Below, piece after piece: positions 4,580-29,586 of a stretch of DNA of 29,586 nucleotides (positions are counted from its first letter, which is position 1; every line of letters starts with the position of its first letter). This stretch comes from a virus. Below the pieces are notes generated by a model that ran no database searches, was not told the origin of the DNA, and was given only the letters and a program-made list of their open reading frames with translations. Made by a program: the position numbers and the translations under genes. Location: IMG/VR virus record IMGVR_UViG_3300037520_000460, positions 1 through 29,586 of that record; one strand, given 5' to 3'.

Positions 4580-4835
4580 TAAGATCTCCGAGGATCGCTG
4601 CTCTCGCTTGCGCGACGAGGAAGCGGAGATCGTCTTCCTCGGCGAGATCGACGGCGAGTGTGTAGAGGTCGAGGGCTTCCCAAGTCGGCGAGAGGATCGA
4701 GCGGCATCGGAGCGCGGCTCGATCGGAGTTCCCTCGCGTGACTGCGAATGAAAGCACCGTCTCGACGTGGGCTTGGACGCGCCGAGATTCGAGTTTGTGC
4801 AGGCCTCTCGGATTTTTTCTCGACATCTCCTTCAT
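4479..4835 (-). CDS. Possible lone minus-strand gene, 118 aa, divergent from the RecT-like gene
   Basis: In the 4580-4891 gap no + strand frame gives a sensible protein, but the minus strand does. From ATG at 4835 (or 4826) it runs to TAG at 4481-4479. The middle has alternating helices with a normal composition (ALDLYTLAVDLAEEDDLRFL) and uses CTC, GTC, GAT and GCC codons like the + strand genes. The last ~35 residues lie antisense to the end of the fibre gene and are low-complexity, Ser/Arg-rich. Ribosome binding is poor: AAGGAG abuts ATG 4826. The promoter/operator at 4820-4874 would lie just upstream. No HTH seen. It may be real or a shadow. Confidence 0.35.
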   Translation of the reverse strand: MKEMSRKNPRGLHKLESRRVQAHVETVLSFAVTRGNSDRAALRCRSILSPTWEALDLYTLAVDLAEEDDLRFLVAQARAAILGDLIRRSENQRSSRCRDSSQEGSSPSRTYRTSDRTP

Positions 4836-4849
4836 TCTTCCGATATAGT
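4820..4849 (+). promoter_or_regulatory. Sigma70-like promoter for the early region
   Basis: TCGACA at 4820-4825 matches the -35 consensus at 5 of 6 bases, and TATAGT at 4844-4849 matches the -10 at 5 of 6, with an 18-base spacer. The -10 abuts the palindromic operator at 4848-4874. It would drive the RecT-like gene and the genes behind it. Confidence 0.45.
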
Positions 4850-4874
4850 GTCCGCAAGCGGACACGGTGTCCGC
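4848..4874. promoter_or_regulatory. Two overlapping palindromes: operator and/or leader hairpin
   Basis: GTGTCCGC-AA-GCGGACAC (4848-4865) and GCGGACAC-G-GTGTCCGC (4858-4874) share the middle arm, giving three alternating half-sites next to the -10. As DNA this looks like a cooperative repressor operator. As RNA, transcripts starting near 4856 would contain only the second hairpin, which can be read as GCGGAC, loop ACGGT, GTCCGC. It ends 6 bases before the AGGAG at 4881-4885 and so matches the leader hairpins of the other early genes. Confidence 0.6.
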
Positions 4875-4891
4875 AGAAACAGGAGACACAA

Positions 4892-5776
4892 ATGACATCA
4901 TTGATCGTATCGGAGGCCGCGAAGACGGCCAGTTCTCAACTCGCCATTGCCGGAACAAAGGCTCTCGAAGCCTACATAGCCGCAGGCGACATCGGCAAAC
5001 TCGGGCCGGAGCAGCGCATCGCGCTGTATCGCGCCGTCTGCGATTCGCTCGGCCTGAATCCGCTCACTCAGCCGTTTCAGTATCTCACGCTCTCGGGGAA
5101 GACGGTTCTGTACGCGACGAAATCCTGCACCGAGCAGTTGCGCTCGATTCACGGCGTTTCGGTTGTCCGCATGGAGCGCGAGATCATCGGCGACATCCTG
5201 ACCGTCACGGTCGCCGTGACCGAGCGGACAGGCCGCGAAGATATCTCGACTGGCTCGGTCAGCCTCGCCGGATTGAAAGGCGAGAATCTCTCGAATGCTC
5301 ACATGAAGGCTGAGACGAAGGCAAAGAGACGCGCCACGCTTTCGATCTGCGGCCTTGCCGTCCTCGATGAAACCGAGGTCGACTCGATCGCCGGAGCGCA
5401 GGCTGTCTCGGTGCATGAGTTCCACTCTGAGCCGAAGAAGGCCGCGAAGCCAACACGCGAGGAACGCCGGAAGGATCTCGACGAACTCACGAATCCGACT
5501 CCGATCGCGAATCGAGTCGCCGAGCCGGAGATGGTCGCGGAGGACTGCATCACGATCCTTGCACGATCTCCGATCGGCGTGGTCGAAAGTAAGTTAGGTC
5601 GCCGCGTCTGGCGGATCGATCAGGAGGATCAGCCGCTCCCGATCGCCGTTTTCTCGGAGGAGATCGCGTCATTGCTCGAAGCGAATCAGGCGTTCAGCGT
5701 CAATACGCGCGTCCGCGTCAAGGCGCGATCCAACGGCGGATTCGAGGTCGTCCAGATCATCGGAGACGCGCCATGA
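4892..5776 (+). CDS. Putative RecT-like single-strand annealing protein
   Basis: 294 aa. ATG 4892 is chosen over the longer frame from 4748 because AGGAG (4881-4885) precedes it and the 48 upstream residues are Arg/Ser junk crossing the promoter. Residues ~40-165 carry a pattern I associate with phage annealing proteins of the RecT/Red-beta type: SLGLNPLTQPFQYL, then YATKSCTEQLR, then NAHMKAETKAKRRATLS, and LDETEVDSI. The C-terminal ~75 residues form a separate beta-rich part that could be an OB-like domain. It would anneal ssDNA during recombination-dependent replication, fitting with the RusA-type resolvase at 11303. Family assignment is by motif memory only. Confidence 0.55.
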   Translation: MTSLIVSEAAKTASSQLAIAGTKALEAYIAAGDIGKLGPEQRIALYRAVCDSLGLNPLTQPFQYLTLSGKTVLYATKSCTEQLRSIHGVSVVRMEREIIGDILTVTVAVTERTGREDISTGSVSLAGLKGENLSNAHMKAETKAKRRATLSICGLAVLDETEVDSIAGAQAVSVHEFHSEPKKAAKPTREERRKDLDELTNPTPIANRVAEPEMVAEDCITILARSPIGVVESKLGRRVWRIDQEDQPLPIAVFSEEIASLLEANQAFSVNTRVRVKARSNGGFEVVQIIGDAP

Positions 5777-6132
5777 GTGGGGAGATCGTCGGCTCGGCGA
5801 GCCTTCGATCTCAGATCGGGATCGCGGCGGAAGATCCGAGGATCTTCCGTCCGATCTCGGTCGCGGAGGCTCTGGATGTCGCGCGAATCATCAAGGCGGA
5901 TACCTCGATCGAGGAGGACATCCGCGAGGTCGTCGAGGTCGGGATTCCGCTCGATCTGATGCCTGCACATCTCACGCCGAAGAAGGAGATTCTCGCCGAG
6001 GCTCTTCGCGTCTCGGTGCGAACGATCCGCCGGAGAGAACTCGCTTGGGAATTGTGCGATCAGCGCGTCCGATTCGATCTCGTGCATCGAGCCTCTCGGC
6101 TTGTCTTCGCGAATCGCGGATCGCGTCTCTGA
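5773..6132 (+). CDS. Small putative DNA-binding protein (HTH-like)
   Basis: 119 aa, ATG 5773 overlapping the RecT-like stop (ATGA). Residues ~72-98 (KEILAEALRVSVRTIRRREL) fit a helix-turn-helix: a helix, a turn around the Val-Ser, then an Arg-rich recognition helix. The N-terminal half is acidic and helical. It is co-transcribed with the annealing protein and is followed 11 bases later by an intrinsic terminator, so it closes this two-gene unit. It could be the regulator acting at the 4848-4874 palindromes. That role is inference, and no family is recognised. Confidence 0.55.
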   Translation: MSGEIVGSASLRSQIGIAAEDPRIFRPISVAEALDVARIIKADTSIEEDIREVVEVGIPLDLMPAHLTPKKEILAEALRVSVRTIRRRELAWELCDQRVRFDLVHRASRLVFANRGSRL

Positions 6133-6143
6133 ATCACTCGTCG

Positions 6144-6176
6144 AGCCTGCCGTGAGAAGTTCGCGGCAGGCTTTTT
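6144..6176 (+). terminator. Intrinsic terminator
   Basis: GCCTGCCG (6145-6152) pairs with CGGCAGGC (6164-6171), and A6144-T6172 adds a ninth pair. The loop is 11 bases and TTTTT (6172-6176) follows. It lies just after the stop of the HTH-like gene and ends the RecT-like unit. Confidence 0.85.
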
Positions 6177-6376
6177 GACAATCTTCGGAAATTTCGAAGT
6201 TTCCCCCCTTTACAAATCGAAATCCCTCCCCCCTAATAACCCCCCACCCGAGCAAAGCGACACAGATACGCACTCGGTGTTCCGGCTCGACTCCTTACGT
6301 GTAACTCCTTTTCTCTTCTCCTTCGTGGAAACGGAAGCGGAGTACGTCAAACGTAGTTATGGAGAGGGCCGCGAAA
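6177..6376. other. Non-coding gap with C6 runs, candidate G-quadruplex and inverted repeats
   Basis: Between the terminator and the next leader lie about 200 bases with no credible gene. They contain three exact C6 runs (6203-6208, 6228-6233, 6240-6245), a small inverted repeat around 6183-6199 (CTTCG...CGAAG), a TTACGTGTAA near-palindrome at about 6295-6304, and TACGT-CAA-ACGTA at 6343-6355. The composition is unlike the rest of the genome. It could be a replication origin or a regulatory region. No clear -35/-10 pair was found. Confidence 0.5.
6224..6249 (-). other. Candidate G-quadruplex (minus strand)
   Basis: Read on the minus strand the tract is GGG-T-GGGGGG-TTATTA-GGGGGG-A-GGG: four G runs of at least three with loops of 1, 6 and 1 bases, a canonical intramolecular quadruplex motif. 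The + strand could form an i-motif. It is the densest G/C-run tract I noticed in the window. Confidence 0.6.
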
Positions 6377-6402
6377 CTCTGGCAGGAGCCAGAGAAAGAG
6401 AG
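6377..6402 (+). promoter_or_regulatory. Leader hairpin with AGGA loop and weak Shine-Dalgarno
   Basis: CTCTGGC (6377-6383), loop AGGA (6384-6387), GCCAGAG (6388-6394), followed by AAAGAGAGAC, a degenerate form of the AAAGGAGACA box used by other early genes. The ATG is at 6408. The position matches the hairpins before 4892, 7233, 7752 and 8180. Confidence 0.55.
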
Positions 6403-6407
6403 ACGCA

Positions 6408-7025
6408 ATGGAACAAAAGAAGCAAGGCATGACGCGCGAGGAACTTGCCGGATTTACTGCGCGAGCGAATCGCTACTTCAAAGGCGAAACCGATCGCGAG
6501 TTGTGGTCACTCGCGCTTCCGCGCATCGCGGAGGAATCCGCCGAGGTCGCGATGGCCGCGCTTGAGAACTACTCGATCCAATGGGGAGGGCCGCGAGCGC
6601 GATTCCTCCCTTCGAAGTTCTTCGAGTTCCTTGCCGATGTGAAAGTTCGCCGTCTGGAACTCACACAACGTGAGGCTCGCGAGCGCGAGGCGCGGATGCG
6701 CTCGATCGCTGCGAGCCGAGACGCGGCAGTCTGCGAGGCCGACTGGCTCTCGCGACGGCGCGAGATCGAGACTGCGAATCCGCTCGAAGTCGGAGAAGCC
6801 GTCGACTACCTCCGCTCGCTTGGGTGGGGGAATCCGCCGGAGGCATTCGGTGCATGGAGCCGACCTTGGATTCTCGCCGTCTCGGATCTCGTCTGCCGGA
6901 GGACGCTCGCCGGATACGATCGCGATCGGCAGGGATTCGAGGATCGCGACCGGAATCCGCTCCGGCCAGTCTCAGCGGCGACTTTCTACCGCGAGGCAGG
7001 AAAGGCCGCCGCAAGGCTCGCCTAG
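6408..7025 (+). CDS. Unknown early protein, possibly helicase-loader-like
   Basis: 205 aa, ATG 6408. Residues ~15-65 are helical with an aromatic and acidic pattern (RELWSLALPRIAEESAEVAM, then PSKFFEFLADV) that loosely recalls the N-terminal domain of phage replicative-helicase loaders such as G39P, in which an ELW...L segment is followed by an A-x-x-x-Y helix and a P-S/T entry helix. Residues 75-130 are a charged helix. The C-terminal half is Arg-rich with several Trp. No Walker motifs are visible, so any loader would be of the small non-ATPase kind. It stands alone between a leader hairpin and a 207-base gap. Confidence 0.6.
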   Translation: MEQKKQGMTREELAGFTARANRYFKGETDRELWSLALPRIAEESAEVAMAALENYSIQWGGPRARFLPSKFFEFLADVKVRRLELTQREAREREARMRSIAASRDAAVCEADWLSRRREIETANPLEVGEAVDYLRSLGWGNPPEAFGAWSRPWILAVSDLVCRRTLAGYDRDRQGFEDRDRNPLRPVSAATFYREAGKAAARLA

Positions 7026-7070
7026 GCGTTTGGCCCGTCTGGAGGCCTTCCGAGGCATTCCGCGCTCCGA

Positions 7071-7084
7071 GGCCCGTACGGGCC
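7071..7084. repeat. 14-bp perfect palindrome
   Basis: GGCCCGTACGGGCC lies 46 bases after the stop at 7025 and is followed by GTTTCCC. It could be a protein-binding site or a weak hairpin. The lack of a T run argues against a normal terminator. Confidence 0.4.
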
Positions 7085-7127
7085 GTTTCCCGCGATTTGG
7101 ATATACAGAGTCCCGATAACCTAGAAT

Positions 7128-7154
7128 CTTGAGGAAATTTAGTAAATGCTCAAG
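7128..7154. promoter_or_regulatory. Inverted repeat CTTGAG-N15-CTCAAG
   Basis: CTTGAG at 7128-7133 and CTCAAG at 7149-7154 flank an AT-rich centre. The arrangement resembles a repressor operator upstream of the 7233 gene. The rest of the 7026-7196 gap holds the palindrome at 7071 and a possible -10, with no gene. Confidence 0.4.
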
Positions 7155-7183
7155 CGATTCGCTCCCTTTGGTCGAAATCCTTG

Positions 7184-7189
7184 TATACT
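7184..7189 (+). promoter_or_regulatory. Possible -10 box (TATACT)
   Basis: TATACT matches 5 of 6 bases of TATAAT and lies 8 bases before the leader hairpin of the 7233 gene. No convincing -35 lies 16-18 bases upstream, so this is weak and might need an activator or a phage sigma factor. Confidence 0.25.
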
Positions 7190-7196
7190 CATCGCA

Positions 7197-7226
7197 TCGA
7201 GGCACGGAGTCTCGAACACAAAGGAG
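7197..7226 (+). promoter_or_regulatory. Leader hairpin with ACGGA loop plus AAGGAG
   Basis: TCGAGGC (7197-7203), loop ACGGA (7204-7208), GTCTCGA (7209-7215): seven pairs including one G-U. AAGGAG lies at 7221-7226, five bases after the stem, and ATG at 7233. Loop sequence and spacing match those before 7752. Confidence 0.65.
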
Positions 7227-7232
7227 ACACAA

Positions 7233-7655
7233 ATGAGCGCATACATCGTTCCAGCAGAAACCATTCACGTCCTCGCCGCTTGGGCAAGCGTTTCGGAATC
7301 GCCTTTCGGTCTGAAGATGGCGAACGAGGCAAAGGCTCGCGAGGCCTGCCGCGTGCTCTTCGCGGAGAACGCGCGATCGGTCGGACATCGCTACTCCGAG
7401 ACTCCGGCTGAAGTCTCGCCGGAGTTTCTGAACGCTGACTTCTCCTCGATCATTCAGAAGTATCGACCGGAACTTTGCCTCGCTGCTGCTCGCGGATATG
7501 AGTATCAAGCCTGCGAATGCAGCGACTACGAGACGACAGCCGCCGCGCATCTCGTCTCTCGCGCGATCAAGAACGCGAGCGAACGTCTCTGCGAAATCGC
7601 CGGTATTGGATGTTGGACGGTTGGCGCGGATGAAATGGCACAAGCGAAGAAGTGA
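7233..7655 (+). CDS. Conserved-looking phage protein of unknown function (YEYQACE motif)
   Basis: 140 aa. ATG 7233 with AAGGAG at 7221-7226 is chosen over the longer frame from 7146, which would read through the leader hairpin. It opens MSAYIVPAETIHVLAAWA, has ARSVGHRYSE around residue 45-54 and YEYQACECSDYETTAA around 90-105, followed by a terminal helix. I recall this set (an AYIV start, an N-R/S-V-x-x-R-Y centre, a Y-x-Y-Q-x-C-E segment) from many phage hypothetical proteins, without a known function. It is soluble and not membrane-bound. Two hairpins follow it before the next gene. Confidence 0.7.
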   Translation: MSAYIVPAETIHVLAAWASVSESPFGLKMANEAKAREACRVLFAENARSVGHRYSETPAEVSPEFLNADFSSIIQKYRPELCLAAARGYEYQACECSDYETTAAAHLVSRAIKNASERLCEIAGIGCWTVGADEMAQAKK

Positions 7656-7659
7656 ACGA

Positions 7660-7701
7660 CTCAGATCGGAGGAGCCTCCTCAGAGGCTCCTCGAATCTGA
7701 G
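7660..7701 (+). ncRNA. Structured leader element, copy A (large hairpin)
   Basis: CTCAGAT (7660-7666) pairs with ATCTGAG (7695-7701); after a 2x2 internal loop (CG/GA), GAGGAGCCTC (7669-7678) pairs with GAGGCTCCTC (7683-7692), leaving loop CTCA. Copy B at 8088-8129 keeps the same architecture and internal loop with compensated stem changes. There is no T run after it, so it is not a simple terminator. It lies 1-50 bases after the stop of the 7233 gene and upstream of the 7752 gene. Confidence 0.75.
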
Positions 7702-7713
7702 CCGTGAGCCAGA

Positions 7714-7743
7714 CTCGCGAACGGATCGCGAGGAACAAAGGAG
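7714..7743 (+). promoter_or_regulatory. Leader hairpin with ACGGA loop plus AAGGAG
   Basis: CTCGCGA (7714-7720), loop ACGGA (7721-7725), TCGCGAG (7726-7732): seven perfect pairs. AAGGAG is at 7738-7743 and ATG at 7752. The loop is identical to that before 7233 while the stem differs, so loop identity is not simple sequence duplication. Confidence 0.7.
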
Positions 7744-7751
7744 ACACGCAA

Positions 7752-8075
7752 ATGACAACATTCAATCAAATTCTCGCAGACATTCGACGATCACTCGCGA
7801 CGACCTATTTCGCAGATCGTGTCAATGCACTCGGATGCAAAATGACGATCGACGCAAATCGGAACATGATTAGCGTCTTCCTCATATCTCCTAGCGATTC
7901 GACCTTCGAGTTGATCGCCGTCCATCATGGAGAGGATCGCTGGGGAATTCAATCGCGAATCATCAATCCAGAACTTCGCGTCTCGACATCGATGCGAATG
8001 CTCGAAAGAGACATCGCTCGCGAGATCGCCGCAGCATTCGGATCGAATCCGATTAAGGGAATCCTTCCAGAATGA
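7752..8075 (+). CDS. Unknown early protein
   Basis: 107 aa. ATG 7752 follows AAGGAG at 7738-7743; the longer frame from 7704 would run through the leader hairpin. An N-terminal helix (FNQILADIRRSLATTYFAD) is followed by a beta-rich middle containing paired strands (MTIDANRNMISVFLI, then FELIAVHHGEDRWG) and a C-terminal amphipathic helix ending in AREIAAAFG. No motif known to me. The shared leader architecture with its neighbours suggests co-regulation. Confidence 0.65.
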   Translation: MTTFNQILADIRRSLATTYFADRVNALGCKMTIDANRNMISVFLISPSDSTFELIAVHHGEDRWGIQSRIINPELRVSTSMRMLERDIAREIAAAFGSNPIKGILPE

Positions 8076-8087
8076 TTCGCTGAACGA

Positions 8088-8129
8088 CTCGGATCGGAGA
8101 GGCCTCGCGAGAGGCCTCTCGAATCCGCG
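8088..8129 (+). ncRNA. Structured leader element, copy B (large hairpin)
   Basis: CTCGGAT (8088-8094) pairs with ATCCGCG (8123-8129) at six of seven positions. The same CG/GA internal loop follows, then GAGAGGCCTC (8097-8106) pairs with GAGGCCTCTC (8111-8120) around a GCGA tetraloop (GNRA type). Compared with copy A the inner stem has several changes, each matched on the other side. The flanking words GAACGACTC and GCCGT are kept in both copies. Confidence 0.75.
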
Positions 8130-8142
8130 CCGTATGCCGGAG

Positions 8143-8172
8143 CCTCGCATGGAGCGAGGAGCAGACAAGGAG
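8143..8172 (+). promoter_or_regulatory. Leader hairpin with ATGGA loop plus AAGGAG
   Basis: CCTCGC (8143-8148), loop ATGGA (8149-8153), GCGAGG (8154-8159), then AAGGAG at 8167-8172 and ATG at 8180. Third five-base ANGGA loop in a row, here with the N changed to T and a different stem. Confidence 0.7.
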
Positions 8173-8179
8173 ACACATC

Positions 8180-8434
8180 ATGCAAGACGAAACCGACATC
8201 AAGGAACTCTCAGACCTCGAACTCGATCTCGCGATCTCCGCGATAAACGAACTCATCCGCGAGCCGTTCCGCTGCATTCACGGAGAGTATCCGATGCTCG
8301 ATCGCGCCTGCTCTGGTTCTTGGATTCAGGAACTCGAACAAACCGGATCGATTGAAATTCCAGCGCACTACTCGCGAACGAATCGTCCTGAGCAGATCAA
8401 GCGCGAATCACTCACGATCGGAGGCTCGCGATGA
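8180..8434 (+). CDS. Unknown early protein, acidic
   Basis: 84 aa, ATG 8180 behind AAGGAG (8167-8172). The first ~30 residues form an acidic amphipathic helix (LSDLELDLAISAINELIREP), followed by a short segment with two Cys (residues ~32 and 44) and a Trp, then a basic tail. No family recognised. Its stop overlaps the start of the small membrane protein at 8431, so it is translationally coupled to the lysis genes. Confidence 0.6.
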   Translation: MQDETDIKELSDLELDLAISAINELIREPFRCIHGEYPMLDRACSGSWIQELEQTGSIEIPAHYSRTNRPEQIKRESLTIGGSR

Positions 8435-8574
8435 GCGATCTCCTCGTCTGTCTCGCGTTCCTCTGGTACGTCGCGATCCTCGTCGGAATCGTGATGATCG
8501 AATGGAGACTCACGCGAATCGCGAAGCGCATCGATGAAATCGAGCGCGAGGAGAAGAAGCGAGGCTCGAAATGA
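8431..8574 (+). CDS. Small single-span membrane protein, holin- or spanin-like
   Basis: 47 aa, ATG 8431 overlapping the upstream TGA (ATGA), and its own stop overlaps the endolysin start at 8571. One hydrophobic stretch (residues ~4-23, LLVCLAFLWYVAILVGIVMI) is followed by a strongly charged amphipathic helix (RIAKRIDEIEREEKKRG). That is the shape of small pinholin/holin-type or inner-spanin-type proteins, and the position directly before a lysozyme supports a lysis role. It could also be an anti-holin. Confidence 0.6.
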   Translation: MSDLLVCLAFLWYVAILVGIVMIEWRLTRIAKRIDEIEREEKKRGSK

Positions 8575-8972
8575 CTTCGATCCTCCTCTCTACTCTCCTC
8601 CTCATCGCTCCACCGAAAGGCACGGACACTCGAGCCATTCTCGATGCGATTCGCATGGTCGAGACTGGCGGCGAGGCCGATCCAGATCGAGCGATCGGCG
8701 ACAAAGGAAAGGCTCTCGGCGCGTACCAGATCCATCGAGGCTACTGGCTCGACGCGACTGAGAAAGATGCGACTCTTCGCGCTCTCGGATACGAGAGCGT
8801 GAAGAATCGCGAGATCGCCGAGCGTGTCGTCCTTGCGTATCTCACTCGGTACGCACCAGACTGGAAGATCGACACCGTCGCGAGGATTCACAACGGTGGG
8901 CCTCGCGGTCACAAGAAAGAAAGTACACTTGACTACGCTCGCAAGGTGCGAGCAGCAATGGAGACACAATGA
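8571..8972 (+). CDS. Endolysin, invertebrate-type-lysozyme (destabilase)-like
   Basis: 133 aa, ATG 8571 in the upstream stop. Residues 1-17 are a hydrophobic leader (MTSILLSTLLLIAPPKG) that could be a signal or signal-anchor. The catalytic region begins AIRMVETGGEADPDRA, with Glu in VETGG as candidate acid, then ALGAYQIHRGYWLDA and VARIHNGGPRG. The pair Y-Q-I-x-x-x-Y-W and A-R-I-H-N-G-G-P-x-G is the signature I know from i-type lysozymes/destabilases, although the many Cys of the animal proteins are absent. It would cleave peptidoglycan at lysis. Confident as a lysozyme-fold muramidase, less so on the subfamily. Confidence 0.75.
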   Translation: MTSILLSTLLLIAPPKGTDTRAILDAIRMVETGGEADPDRAIGDKGKALGAYQIHRGYWLDATEKDATLRALGYESVKNREIAERVVLAYLTRYAPDWKIDTVARIHNGGPRGHKKESTLDYARKVRAAMETQ

Positions 8973-9493
8973 ATCGAACTATCTACGACATCAGCGCGGA
9001 TCTCGCCGCGCTCGAAACGATCCTCCATGAGAACGGAGGAGACGTATCCGATCCGCAGGCAGAGGCCGCGCTCGCCGAATGGGAACGCGAACTCGAATCG
9101 GATCTCACGGGAAAGGTAGATCGATACTGCTCGCTCATCGCGGAACTCGAAGCGCGATCGGCAATGCGGCAGGCAGAGGCCGACCGTCTGGCGGATCTTG
9201 CGAAGGCTGACGACAAGGCCGCGCAAGGCCTGCGCGAGCGTCTGCGATTCATTTGGGAAACGCGGAATCTCCCCAAGATCGAGACAGCGCGATTCCGAGT
9301 CGCACTCACGCGAAACGGCGGCAAGCCTCCGCTCGATCTCCGCGTCGGGCCGGAAGAGTTGCCAGAGTGGGCGATCGAACGAAAGACGATCGTCACGGCA
9401 AACAAGGACGCGATTCGCGCTCGACTCGAAGCAGGCGAGAATCTTCCATTCGCGAATCTCATGGAACGAGGAACAAGGATCTCGATCAAATGA
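8969..9493 (+). CDS. Siphovirus Gp157-family protein
   Basis: 174 aa, ATG 8969 (ATGA with the endolysin stop). Full family layout: N-terminal Tyr-Asp-Ile start with acidic helix, a long coiled coil with repeated Lys/Ala/Glu from ~45 to 95 (GKVDRYCSLIAELEARS, then LRERLRFIWE), the turn KIETARFRVALTRNGGKPPL, a short P-E-W segment, and the C-terminal A-I-R-A-R-L-E-A-G...ISIK. Members of PF05565 occur in early regions of siphoviruses; a role in replication or phage resistance has been proposed but is unproven. Length is normal for the family. Confidence 0.85.
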   Translation: MNRTIYDISADLAALETILHENGGDVSDPQAEAALAEWERELESDLTGKVDRYCSLIAELEARSAMRQAEADRLADLAKADDKAAQGLRERLRFIWETRNLPKIETARFRVALTRNGGKPPLDLRVGPEELPEWAIERKTIVTANKDAIRARLEAGENLPFANLMERGTRISIK

Positions 9494-9711
9494 ATCGACC
9501 GTATCTATCCAAGCGAGCGCGACAAGGCCTCGAATCTCTTCTCTCGCGCTCGATCGCGACGACCGAGGAAGATCTCGTCGCAATGCAATGGATTCGCGGA
9601 ATGCTCGACCGTGCTGCTATCATCGGAAATCCGAAAGCGCAGGACGCGCCGTCTCCTCGGACGGGAGGGAGCAGCAATGCTCCCTCCCAAGGAGAGGAGG
9701 CCACCGTATGA
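9490..9711 (+). CDS. Small unknown early protein
   Basis: 73 aa, ATG 9490 in the stop of the Gp157 gene (ATGA). The first ~40 residues are helical (SKRARQGLESLLSR, then DLVAMQWIRGML); the last 25 are disordered, Ser/Gly/Pro-rich. The disordered tail is encoded by the DNA that forms the strong hairpin at 9663-9688, so its sequence may be dictated by RNA structure. Stop overlaps the next start (ATGA, 9708). Confidence 0.6.
   Translation: MNRPYLSKRARQGLESLLSRSIATTEEDLVAMQWIRGMLDRAAIIGNPKAQDAPSPRTGGSSNAPSQGEEATV
9663..9688 (+). promoter_or_regulatory. 11-bp hairpin with GNRA loop before the CsrA-like gene
   Basis: GGGAGGGAGCA (9663-9673), loop GCAA (9674-9677), TGCTCCCTCCC (9678-9688), perfect. 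AAGGAG starts at 9689, directly after the stem, and the ATG is at 9708. It lies inside the end of the 9490 gene. Its position could limit ribosome access to the 9708 gene or protect an mRNA end. Confidence 0.6.
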
Positions 9712-9911
9712 AACAACCGATCGACAAACCGTCGCACTTTGGCCGCGTCATCCGGCAGGCCTACGAAGGCGATCGAATCTGGCTCATCGCCGAGAACGGC
9801 GATGATCTCGGATTCCTCGAAATGAAGCGAGTTCCGAAGGACGCGAAGATCACCGTCGCATTGTGCTTCGATCGCACGATTCGCATCGAGCGCAGAGAGG
9901 AGGAGCGATGA
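9708..9911 (+). CDS. Possible CsrA/RsmA-like RNA-binding protein
   Basis: 67 aa, ATG 9708 in the upstream stop, with AAGGAG and GAGGAGG close by. After a 12-residue lead the protein is a run of short beta strands: GRVIRQAYEGDRIWLI, GDDLGFLEMKR, AKITVALCFDRTIRIERREE. CsrA has the order strand1-GE-strand, (I)GDD, VTVLEV, then V-R-I/L-G-I-x-A-P-K-x-V-x-V-x-R-E-E. The end here fits that spacing, with the Arg equivalent to CsrA R44 followed by acidic residues. The AP pair is replaced by FD and the N-terminal R6 is not clearly present. CsrA binds ANGGA loops, the very motif in the early leaders. It may instead be an unrelated beta barrel. Confidence 0.4.
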   Translation: MKQPIDKPSHFGRVIRQAYEGDRIWLIAENGDDLGFLEMKRVPKDAKITVALCFDRTIRIERREEER

Positions 9912-12776: not shown

Positions 12777-12915
12777 GTCGTCTCCGATCCGAATCGGGCC
12801 GGATGTGAAAGGACACGTCTACATTCGCGAGAATGGCGAGTGGACACTCTCCGCGAATCGCGTCGAGATTCCTGAAGGCTACTATCTCGTTCCTCCTTCA
12901 TATGTCGACGAATAA
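12691..12915 (+). CDS. Lipoprotein, outer-spanin-like
   Basis: 74 aa, ATG 12691 with AAAGGAAAGAAGG just upstream. A lipoprotein signal peptide (MVKKILTLSLVQGSVFLTAC) has lipobox LTAC with Cys at residue 20. The mature part is 55 residues and beta-like (GHVYIRENGEWTL, RVEIPEGYYLVPPS). Similar small lipoproteins with a V-x-x-x-S/E-P-I-R-I opening and an I-P-E-G-Y/W-Y close are common in phage lysis blocks. With the overlapping anchored protein it may disrupt the outer membrane. This implies a diderm host. Confidence 0.65.
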   Translation: MVKKILTLSLVQGSVFLTACGPRTVLVRESSPIRIGPDVKGHVYIRENGEWTLSANRVEIPEGYYLVPPSYVDE

Positions 12916-13156
12916 AGCCAAGTCGCGCATTCAGCCTCCGCTCTCGATCGAGGGCGAGATGAATGTCCCGTGGCTGACGACGGGCCAAGTCGCTGCACGT
13001 CTCGGAGTTTCGATGAGAACCGTCTCGAAGTGGATCGACAACGGAATTCTTCGAGGGATTCGAATCCCGTTCTCAAAGGATCGCCGAGTTCATCCGCAGG
13101 CACTTGTCGAGTTTGAGAAGTTGCACGGATTCGATCGAGCGCGAGGCAAGAAATGA
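12902..13156 (+). CDS. Excisionase/MerR-type HTH DNA-binding protein
   Basis: 84 aa. ATG 12902 overlaps the lipoprotein end by 14 bases and is preferred to longer upstream starts. Residues ~22-70 form a winged HTH of the HTH_17/excisionase kind: WLTTGQVAARLGVSMRTVSK, then IDNGILRGIRIPFSKDRRVH. Such proteins bind DNA as Xis-like factors or small regulators. No integrase was found, so a regulator (for late genes, or at the early palindromes) is more likely than excision. Confident fold, unknown target. Confidence 0.75.
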   Translation: MSTNKAKSRIQPPLSIEGEMNVPWLTTGQVAARLGVSMRTVSKWIDNGILRGIRIPFSKDRRVHPQALVEFEKLHGFDRARGKK

Positions 13157-29148: not shown

Positions 29149-29586
29149 TGGCTTTCGAGTTTGTCGAGTTGCAGGAGACGCGAGGATTCAGCGACAGCGG
29201 AGGCCGCGTCAGCGCGAGCCGAACTTTCCGTTGTTGGGATGATGCCGCTCCGATCACGTCTCCGAAGATGGTCAAGGATCATTTCGGAGTCGAGTTGCCG
29301 GACATCCGCGAAGAGTTTCCCGATGAGAAATTGATCTTCGCGACTGCGTTCTCGATTAAGCACATCGCCGAATCTCGCAATGTGTGGGAAGTAGAGTTCA
29401 CCTACGAGAACACAGAGCCGGGAGATAAACTCCCGAATGAAGAAGGCTACATACAGATTACGATTGACTACGCTTCCGAGTTTCGCGATGCGTGGAGACT
29501 CAATCCTCAGATTCCAACGAATGGAACGGCGACCGGAGAGAATTGCTTGGGAACTCCAATCGACAAGGCCGGAGTGCCTCTCTCGA
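29148..29586 (+). CDS. Distal tail protein, N-terminal part (continues at base 1)
   Basis: Starts ATG 29148 within the tape-measure stop (ATGA) and is open to the contig end; 29460-29586 duplicate 1-127. In the circle it is 267 aa. The opening FEFVELQETRGFSDSGGRVS and the TFRCWDDAAP segment are beta-like. Position immediately after the tape measure suggests the distal-tail or tip-forming protein. No fold motif recognised with certainty. Confidence 0.7.
   Translation, partial: MAFEFVELQETRGFSDSGGRVSASRTFRCWDDAAPITSPKMVKDHFGVELPDIREEFPDEKLIFATAFSIKHIAESRNVWEVEFTYENTEPGDKLPNEEGYIQITIDYASEFRDAWRLNPQIPTNGTATGENCLGTPIDKAGVPLS
29460..29586. repeat. Terminal direct repeat, right copy (contig closure)
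   Basis: Exact copy of bases 1-127. Joining 29459 to 1 gives a continuous circle with no frame change in the gene that starts at 29148. The window should be treated as a complete circularly permuted or circularised phage genome. Confidence 0.95.

Follow-up and report, generated by a model that had tools for sequence, protein, structure and literature searches.

A family of leader hairpins with CsrA-site-like loops in the early region of uncultured phages, and a promoter where one such hairpin overlaps a DNA dyad

A short segment at positions 4820-4887 of the window, the 29,586-base IMG/VR virus record analysed here in full, is best read as the promoter and leader of an early two-gene unit (4892-6132). 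In our preferred reading, to which we assign a probability of roughly 0.5, the segment specifies a leader hairpin coupled to the promoter, through which a protein of the CsrA/RsmA type would control translation or message stability, in a geometry like that of the glgC leader. The parts of this reading differ in strength: the anatomy of promoter and leader we regard as highly probable, while the CsrA-type mechanism is tentative and somewhat short of an even chance. More specifically, RNA polymerase would start at about 4855-4857, such that a stable hairpin (4858-4874) would open the message, with a short spacer separating it from the Shine-Dalgarno (SD) sequence. We infer that a CsrA/RsmA-type RNA-binding protein, from either the host or the phage, would hold the loop and either compete with ribosomes for the SD, in the manner of CsrA on glgC, or protect the 5' end, and that the early genes would hence be tuned together. 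A third, upstream arm would be an element that one clade has added to this promoter at the DNA level, so that symmetries of RNA and DNA overlap in this segment. For csrA alleles, which are known on phages and plasmids, the role there is called obscure or untested (PMC7366521). The uncultured phages described here form a compact group in which hairpins resembling CsrA sites recur before early genes, in many cases where the transcript is predicted to begin; they offer a concrete, testable RNA regulon along with a short list of candidate binders.

The record bears a direct terminal repeat of 127 bases (1-127 and 29460-29586), which makes it likely that the phage genome is complete. At the DNA level, it has no near relative among 50,697 phage records, and three distant matches were recovered at the protein level. 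A tblastn search of viral contigs with the 294-aa product of the first gene of the unit (4892-5776, + strand) yielded 56 loci, 28 of which are close (L002-L028 and L057), and a wider scan added a further related locus (L094). The promoter alignment accordingly comprises 30 rows, namely the 28 close loci, L094 and the window, with 22 distinct sequences among them. A search of genome contigs returned partial, distant relatives only, spread over many phyla. The conserved 294-aa protein belongs to no named family: neither it nor six of its distant relatives gave a significant family match, and for the window's protein Pfam, PHROGs and PDB sequences were all without one; the name RecT, which served as a working label for it, is supported by none of the searches. 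This early protein has many distant relatives in phages and in bacterial genomes of several phyla. The second gene (5773-6132, +; 119 aa) overlaps the first and is conserved beside it. As the two overlapping genes are followed by a terminator-like hairpin (6145-6176, +; GCCTGCC...GGCAGGC then TTTTT, read from the sequence and not listed by the scan that gave the promoter), a unit of just these two genes is most likely what the promoter drives.

That promoter (4820-4849, +) is of the sigma-70 type, with TCGACA (4820-4825) and TATAGT (4844-4849) matching the consensus at 10 of 12 positions in the promoter scan and separated by 18 nt, which falls within the 16-18 nt expected between -35 and -10 hexamers. 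A -10 hexamer of the form TANNNT lies at the same place in all 30 related rows. Superimposed on its downstream edge are three alternating half-sites: the window has exactly three copies of GTGTCCGC, at 4848-4855 (+), 4858-4865 (-) and 4867-4874 (+), creating the two dyads GTGTCCGC-AA-GCGGACAC and GCGGACAC-G-GTGTCCGC, of which the left arm overlaps the final two bases of the TATAGT box. A check of the sequence thus bears out, coordinates included, the original prediction of three alternating half-sites forming two palindromes that touch the -10 box. This 8-nt triple is the sole case of its design in the window, and neither 60 first-order Markov randomised windows nor 1,309,819 bases of 120 less related loci held even one; hence, we do not consider it a product of chance. 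A search with the triple pattern recovered 10 stretches, every one on contigs already in the related set.

The centre and right arms (4858-4874, +) constitute the leader hairpin GCGGAC-ACGGT-GTCCGC, predicted to be 5'-terminal and having a counterpart in each of the 30 rows. As RNA, it would form GCGGAC-ACGGU-GUCCGC, or the same stem with one more pair and a CGG triloop (-11.4 kcal/mol, z -3.58). The second palindrome had been put forward as a hairpin closed by a single nucleotide; the leader hairpin stands, but a 1-nt loop is impossible in RNA and the loop would be ACGGU or CGG. Without exception, the 30 related promoters, of which 22 are distinct, have a hairpin with 5 or more pairs that begins 5-10 nt past the -10 box, and, since transcription usually starts 6-8 nt after this box, the hairpin would be the first thing in the RNA. 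The GGAGAC SD (4882-4887, +), common to the related leaders, is likewise present in 30/30 rows. The stems vary by lineage (GCGGAC, TCGGAC, GCGGC, GGCGU, GCGGGA and CGCGCGGC), and in L013 and L094 the stem is held by a G-U pair, which fits RNA better than DNA. Across the 14 distinct sequences with a left arm, the centre:right pairs are kept in 98.8% of the cells; one pair shows a two-sided change, and the covariation score was reached by 17 of 500 pair shuffles. L003 breaks both this pairing and that of left with centre. The loop, ACGGU in the window, is ACGGU, AUGGU, ACGGC, ACGGA or ACGAA in the stem-sharing kin (ACGGU, AUGGU or ACGGC in the nearest of them, ACGAA in L016, L021, L022 and L026). 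On this comparative evidence, the centre and right arms appear to form an RNA leader hairpin, one of a group-wide family; the further claim that the transcript would include the second hairpin alone, there doubling as the ACGGT leader hairpin, is supported by the 30/30 promoters and the G-U pairs. In six relatives (L018:3843-3896, and also L019, L020, L024, L025 and L027), two consecutive hairpins precede the SD, for example, GCGGC-ATGGA-GCCGC and then GCGATC-TCGGA-GATCGC.

In the window itself, comparable hairpins stand before further early genes, viz., CTCTGGC-AGGA-GCCAGAG before gene 6408 (6377-6394, +), TCGAGGC-ACGGA-GTCTCGA before gene 7233, beginning at 7197 downstream of a -10-like TATACT (7184-7215, + for the whole element), CTCGCGA-ACGGA-TCGCGAG before gene 7752 (7714-7732, +), CCTCGC-ATGGA-GCGAGG before gene 8180 (8143-8159, +), and GCTCGC-AAGGT-GCGAGC (8937-8953, +), which lies inside the end of gene 8571 and precedes the gene 8969 SD. 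In the relatives, too, further early genes have the same type of hairpin in front. As read from the sequences, the recurring cassette is a short GC-rich stem of free sequence with a loop that is mostly ANGGA or AGGA, followed by a short spacer, GGAGAC and the start codon. Long GC-rich inverted repeats at 8090-8127 and about 7660-7703, each followed by a leader hairpin, also lie between small early genes of the window and are possibly terminators or processing sites.

The distribution of these motif leaders is strongly asymmetric: in the 28 close loci (300,022 bp) the coding strand has 76 and the opposite strand none, as against 0 and 1, respectively, among 55 distant viral loci (605,379 bp), and 2 and 0 among 65 genome loci (705,495 bp). 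Hairpins near GGAGAC starts fall into the loop class in 44/79 cases versus 67/4782 for other hairpins, and have the exact ANGGA or AGGA loop in 34/79 versus 22/4782, with 26 different stems among the loop-class leader hairpins; as our counts and trees include related sequences, the Fisher values are not independent-trial probabilities and carry no weight in our conclusions. Of the 101 GGAGAC leaders, 22 have no hairpin and 35 were given a hairpin of another kind by the script, which picked the left:centre hairpin for the leader of the window and its nearest kin, a choice that counts against the motif. The same preference emerges when pairing is not used to select cases: ANGGA near the SD is flanked by 5/5 Watson-Crick pairs in 17/43 instances versus 8/1384 elsewhere, ANGAN in 11/111 leader instances versus 24/5494 elsewhere, and ANGGB in 7/48 versus 8/2468. 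Among control words in leaders, GNGGA (0/37), CNGGA (0/31), GANGA, GGNAA, ANCCA, ANTCG, TNGGT and CNGGC were never stem-flanked, and TNGGA (2/18), AGNGA (1/18) and AGGNA (1/29) were seldom so; ACNGA (10/35) is not an independent control because it contains the motif ACGGA. Some other leaders have AAGAU or AUGAC loops, and the loop consensus over the leaders is A-N-G-R-N. Of the 57 distinct motif hairpins, 22 are preceded at 5-10 nt by a -10-like hexamer, as opposed to 325/42,632 background positions. At the level of sequence comparison, we thus establish the cassette, its position just past the -10 box, its loop preference and its restriction to these phages. The family is one that Rfam does not hold: the window has no match at the gathering score, and 4800-9000 gave only two microRNA matches (E > 2). 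An exact search for wider spread of the cassette pattern returned one contig, already in the related set, and our searches of a paper library found no description of this leader family.

The closest functional precedent is provided by CsrA and its relatives. According to excerpts of PMC7652899, CsrA binds ANGGA(N) hairpin loops, GGA was 100% conserved in its SELEX ligands, and on glgC it contacts the SD together with a loop site that closely precedes it. Likewise, part of PMC3791407 reports that RsmA-family proteins bind ANGGA loops and that a 5-nt GGA loop of RsmY bound RsmN. The phage leaders resemble the glgC type in having a loop GGA just upstream of the SD, a second GGA within the SD, and recurrence on many genes. 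The distance between the two GGAs, start to start, is 12-20 nt (median 17, n = 34), which lies within the bridging range of 10-63 nt given in the same excerpts, albeit with the median under the reported optimum of >18 nt (PMC7652899). However, the phage stems are longer and stronger, most loops are pentaloops, the loop drifts to ACGGU or ACGAA at some sites, and the hairpins belong to a phage and lie where transcripts are predicted to begin, with candidates only for the binder; very stable stems may be disadvantageous for CsrA sites, as these excerpts also have it (PMC7652899). In the leader at 4858-4874 the loop is ACGGU, and, given that GGA is not kept there, we do not file this leader as a CsrA site. 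It may nevertheless work like a CsrA-type or other protein-recognition hairpin.

The main rival to the CsrA-type reading, possible though at well under even odds, is that the hairpin is merely a 5'-terminal stem-loop that would shield the message from 5'-end-dependent decay while keeping the SD open, its loop being unread. Phage T7 has such a stabilising stem-loop at the 5' end of its gene 10 leader. Stem-loops that stabilise the ompA and papA mRNAs are cited in PMC3997798. All share with the leaders studied here a 5'-terminal stem-loop, a short single-stranded stretch and the SD. In favour of a stabiliser are the hairpin just past the -10 box in 30/30 promoters, the 26 freely varying stems and, in nine sequences from the window's nearest kin, an SD that stays largely unpaired (0.66-0.96) when the RNA is promoter-born. 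Yet, in contrast to these precedents, the phage leaders are repeated before many genes, have a conserved loop and also occur without an evident promoter: 35/57 motif hairpins have no -10 just upstream, and hence many may not be 5'-terminal at all. The failure of GNGGA and CNGGA to be stem-flanked in leaders (0/37 and 0/31) also sits poorly with an unread loop, and the non-random loop (44/79 versus 67/4782) disfavours stabilisation as the whole story. A different kind of rival, very improbable in our estimation, is a read-through switch, wherein RNA arriving from upstream would pair left with centre and TCTCCT (4826-4831) would hide the SD, so that only promoter-born RNA is translated. The long RNA does fold in this way (-27.2 kcal/mol), with the SD of the window unpaired at a probability of 0.03 versus 0.83 in the promoter-born RNA, and the SD is hidden in L094 and L020 as well, where 0/60 spacer shuffles went as low; but 12/60 and 6/60 shuffles hide the SD of the window too, and L014-L016, L018, L021 and L023-L028 stay above 0.3 unpaired. 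As shuffled spacers often hide the SD and most other lineages are without the effect, we rejected this switch. The promoter spacers at L094:5915-6000 and L020:3832-3940 contain an SD complement of the GTCTCC type, and read-through RNA there would hide the SD.

The left arm (4848-4855, +) poses a separate question, since it lies in the discriminator and is predicted to be untranscribed, which suggests a role at the DNA level, where it and the centre arm make up a dyad. Only 21/30 promoter rows have it, and the carriers form one side of a branch in the first-gene protein tree (18 rows) with weak support (73/98). Alignment A4 covers 14 of these 21 rows, the others being identical or near-identical over that stretch; its 14 distinct sequences keep the left:centre pairs in 96.9% of the cells (four cells being G-U and three unpaired), and in L021/L023 a G-to-T change in the centre arm is matched in both outer arms. 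The arm has been maintained in the clade while the promoter spacer diverged, suggesting some function, and it may belong to a repressor site with its centre near +1. A DNA operator in the full sense, with a repressor dimer on the 18-bp dyad at +1 and a second dimer or an alternative register on the right half-site, strikes us as doubtful. It would have in common with phage operator-promoters as a general class the dyad centred near +1, the three alternating half-sites and the early promoter, and it would account for the outer TGTC/GACA kept in 14/14 distinct left-arm promoters as the -35 to -10 spacer diverges, as well as for the single pair altered on both sides, from C-G to A-T, in the L021/L023 lineage. 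However, that left:centre covariation was reached by 51/500 pair shuffles, the inner arm is eroded in L013 and shows C replaced by T in 4/14, and, unlike those systems, the full dyad is single-copy in the window, belongs to one clade only and has a repressor candidate only; outside the promoter, 10 relatives have one 1-mismatch site (L092:6771) and scattered 2-mismatch sites. The cooperative operator of the original prediction is thus no more than a candidate, given the 21/30 rows, the single clade at 73/98 and the single-copy dyad, and of its idea that one sequence may serve two controls the RNA leader hairpin is the supported half. Of its candidate binders, the putative helix-turn-helix (HTH) protein at 5773, the second gene of the unit, is in every covering locus with or without a left arm and has no family match, and that at 9908 matches PHROGs of unknown function. 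The third (12902-13156, +) is a true HTH_17 protein (PF12728, E 5e-9), found in 10/12 left-arm records versus 2/8 others, but this pattern follows the phylogeny and the L018 and L019 records have the protein without the left arm. Should the left arm be an operator, this protein would be the leading candidate to bind it. Alternatively, the left arm could be an evolutionary by-product, an inverted copy of a hairpin arm kept by descent and devoid of function, a possible if somewhat improbable account that fits its confinement to one clade and the imperfect strict Watson-Crick pairing in 5/14 sequences (G-U being scored as imperfect). Against it, GTC and its partners are invariant in 14/14, across lineages whose first-gene protein is 61-77% identical to that of the window.

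Returning to the CsrA-type reading, a binder could in principle be encoded by the phages themselves. Excerpts of PMC7366521 place CsrA family proteins in 30 of 2517 phage genomes, and in this respect phage regulators of GGA RNAs do exist. One might accordingly envisage a miniature Csr system of the phages' own, in which a 67-aa protein (9708-9911, +), either diverged from CsrA or independently evolved, would bind the ANGRN-loop hairpins and govern an early-gene RNA regulon, with the clade-specific dyad adding transcriptional control. We deem this system unlikely, but, were it true, one sequence on the first operon of one clade would carry both control layers. The 67-aa all-beta protein is conserved in the group, with orthologues in many close contigs covering that place, and is a weak candidate for a loop-binding regulator. 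Attention was drawn to its gene by a weak PF02599 match (18.6 bits, cut-off 27) in two near-identical records; no CsrA exceeded this Pfam cut-off in any of 29 records. PF02599 matches 2/14 orthologues (best E 0.00099) and the NCBIfam csrA model reaches a best E of 0.03, below its cut-off, whereas an MCE model does better (5/14, best E 6.9e-5). The position aligned with the RNA-binding R44 is not arginine in L089, L090 and L093 (alignment A2, judged by eye). Two AlphaFold models of single chains both have five strands, neither with a confident fold match, and CsrA is absent among the matches listed. On the other side, profile comparison with CsrA gave P 0.0063 over most of the protein, with 0/40 column shuffles as high, and the 67-aa protein is the best match to a CsrA profile among the ORFs of the close group (E 0.033). 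Comparisons with PHROGs and PDB sequences gave no convincing match. Unlike the CsrA family proteins of other phages, it falls below all CsrA cut-offs and has no constant R44; with the better MCE match and the missing fold match, we rejected its identification as a phage-encoded CsrA. As a positive control, a profile of nine CsrA sequences finds L143:505-729 on a distant viral contig (E 1.1e-6), which is probably a CsrA-like ORF. In a cellular genome, five CsrA-family genes above the Pfam cut-off are present in a single planctomycete MAG, the Gemmataceae genome of L154 (G029).
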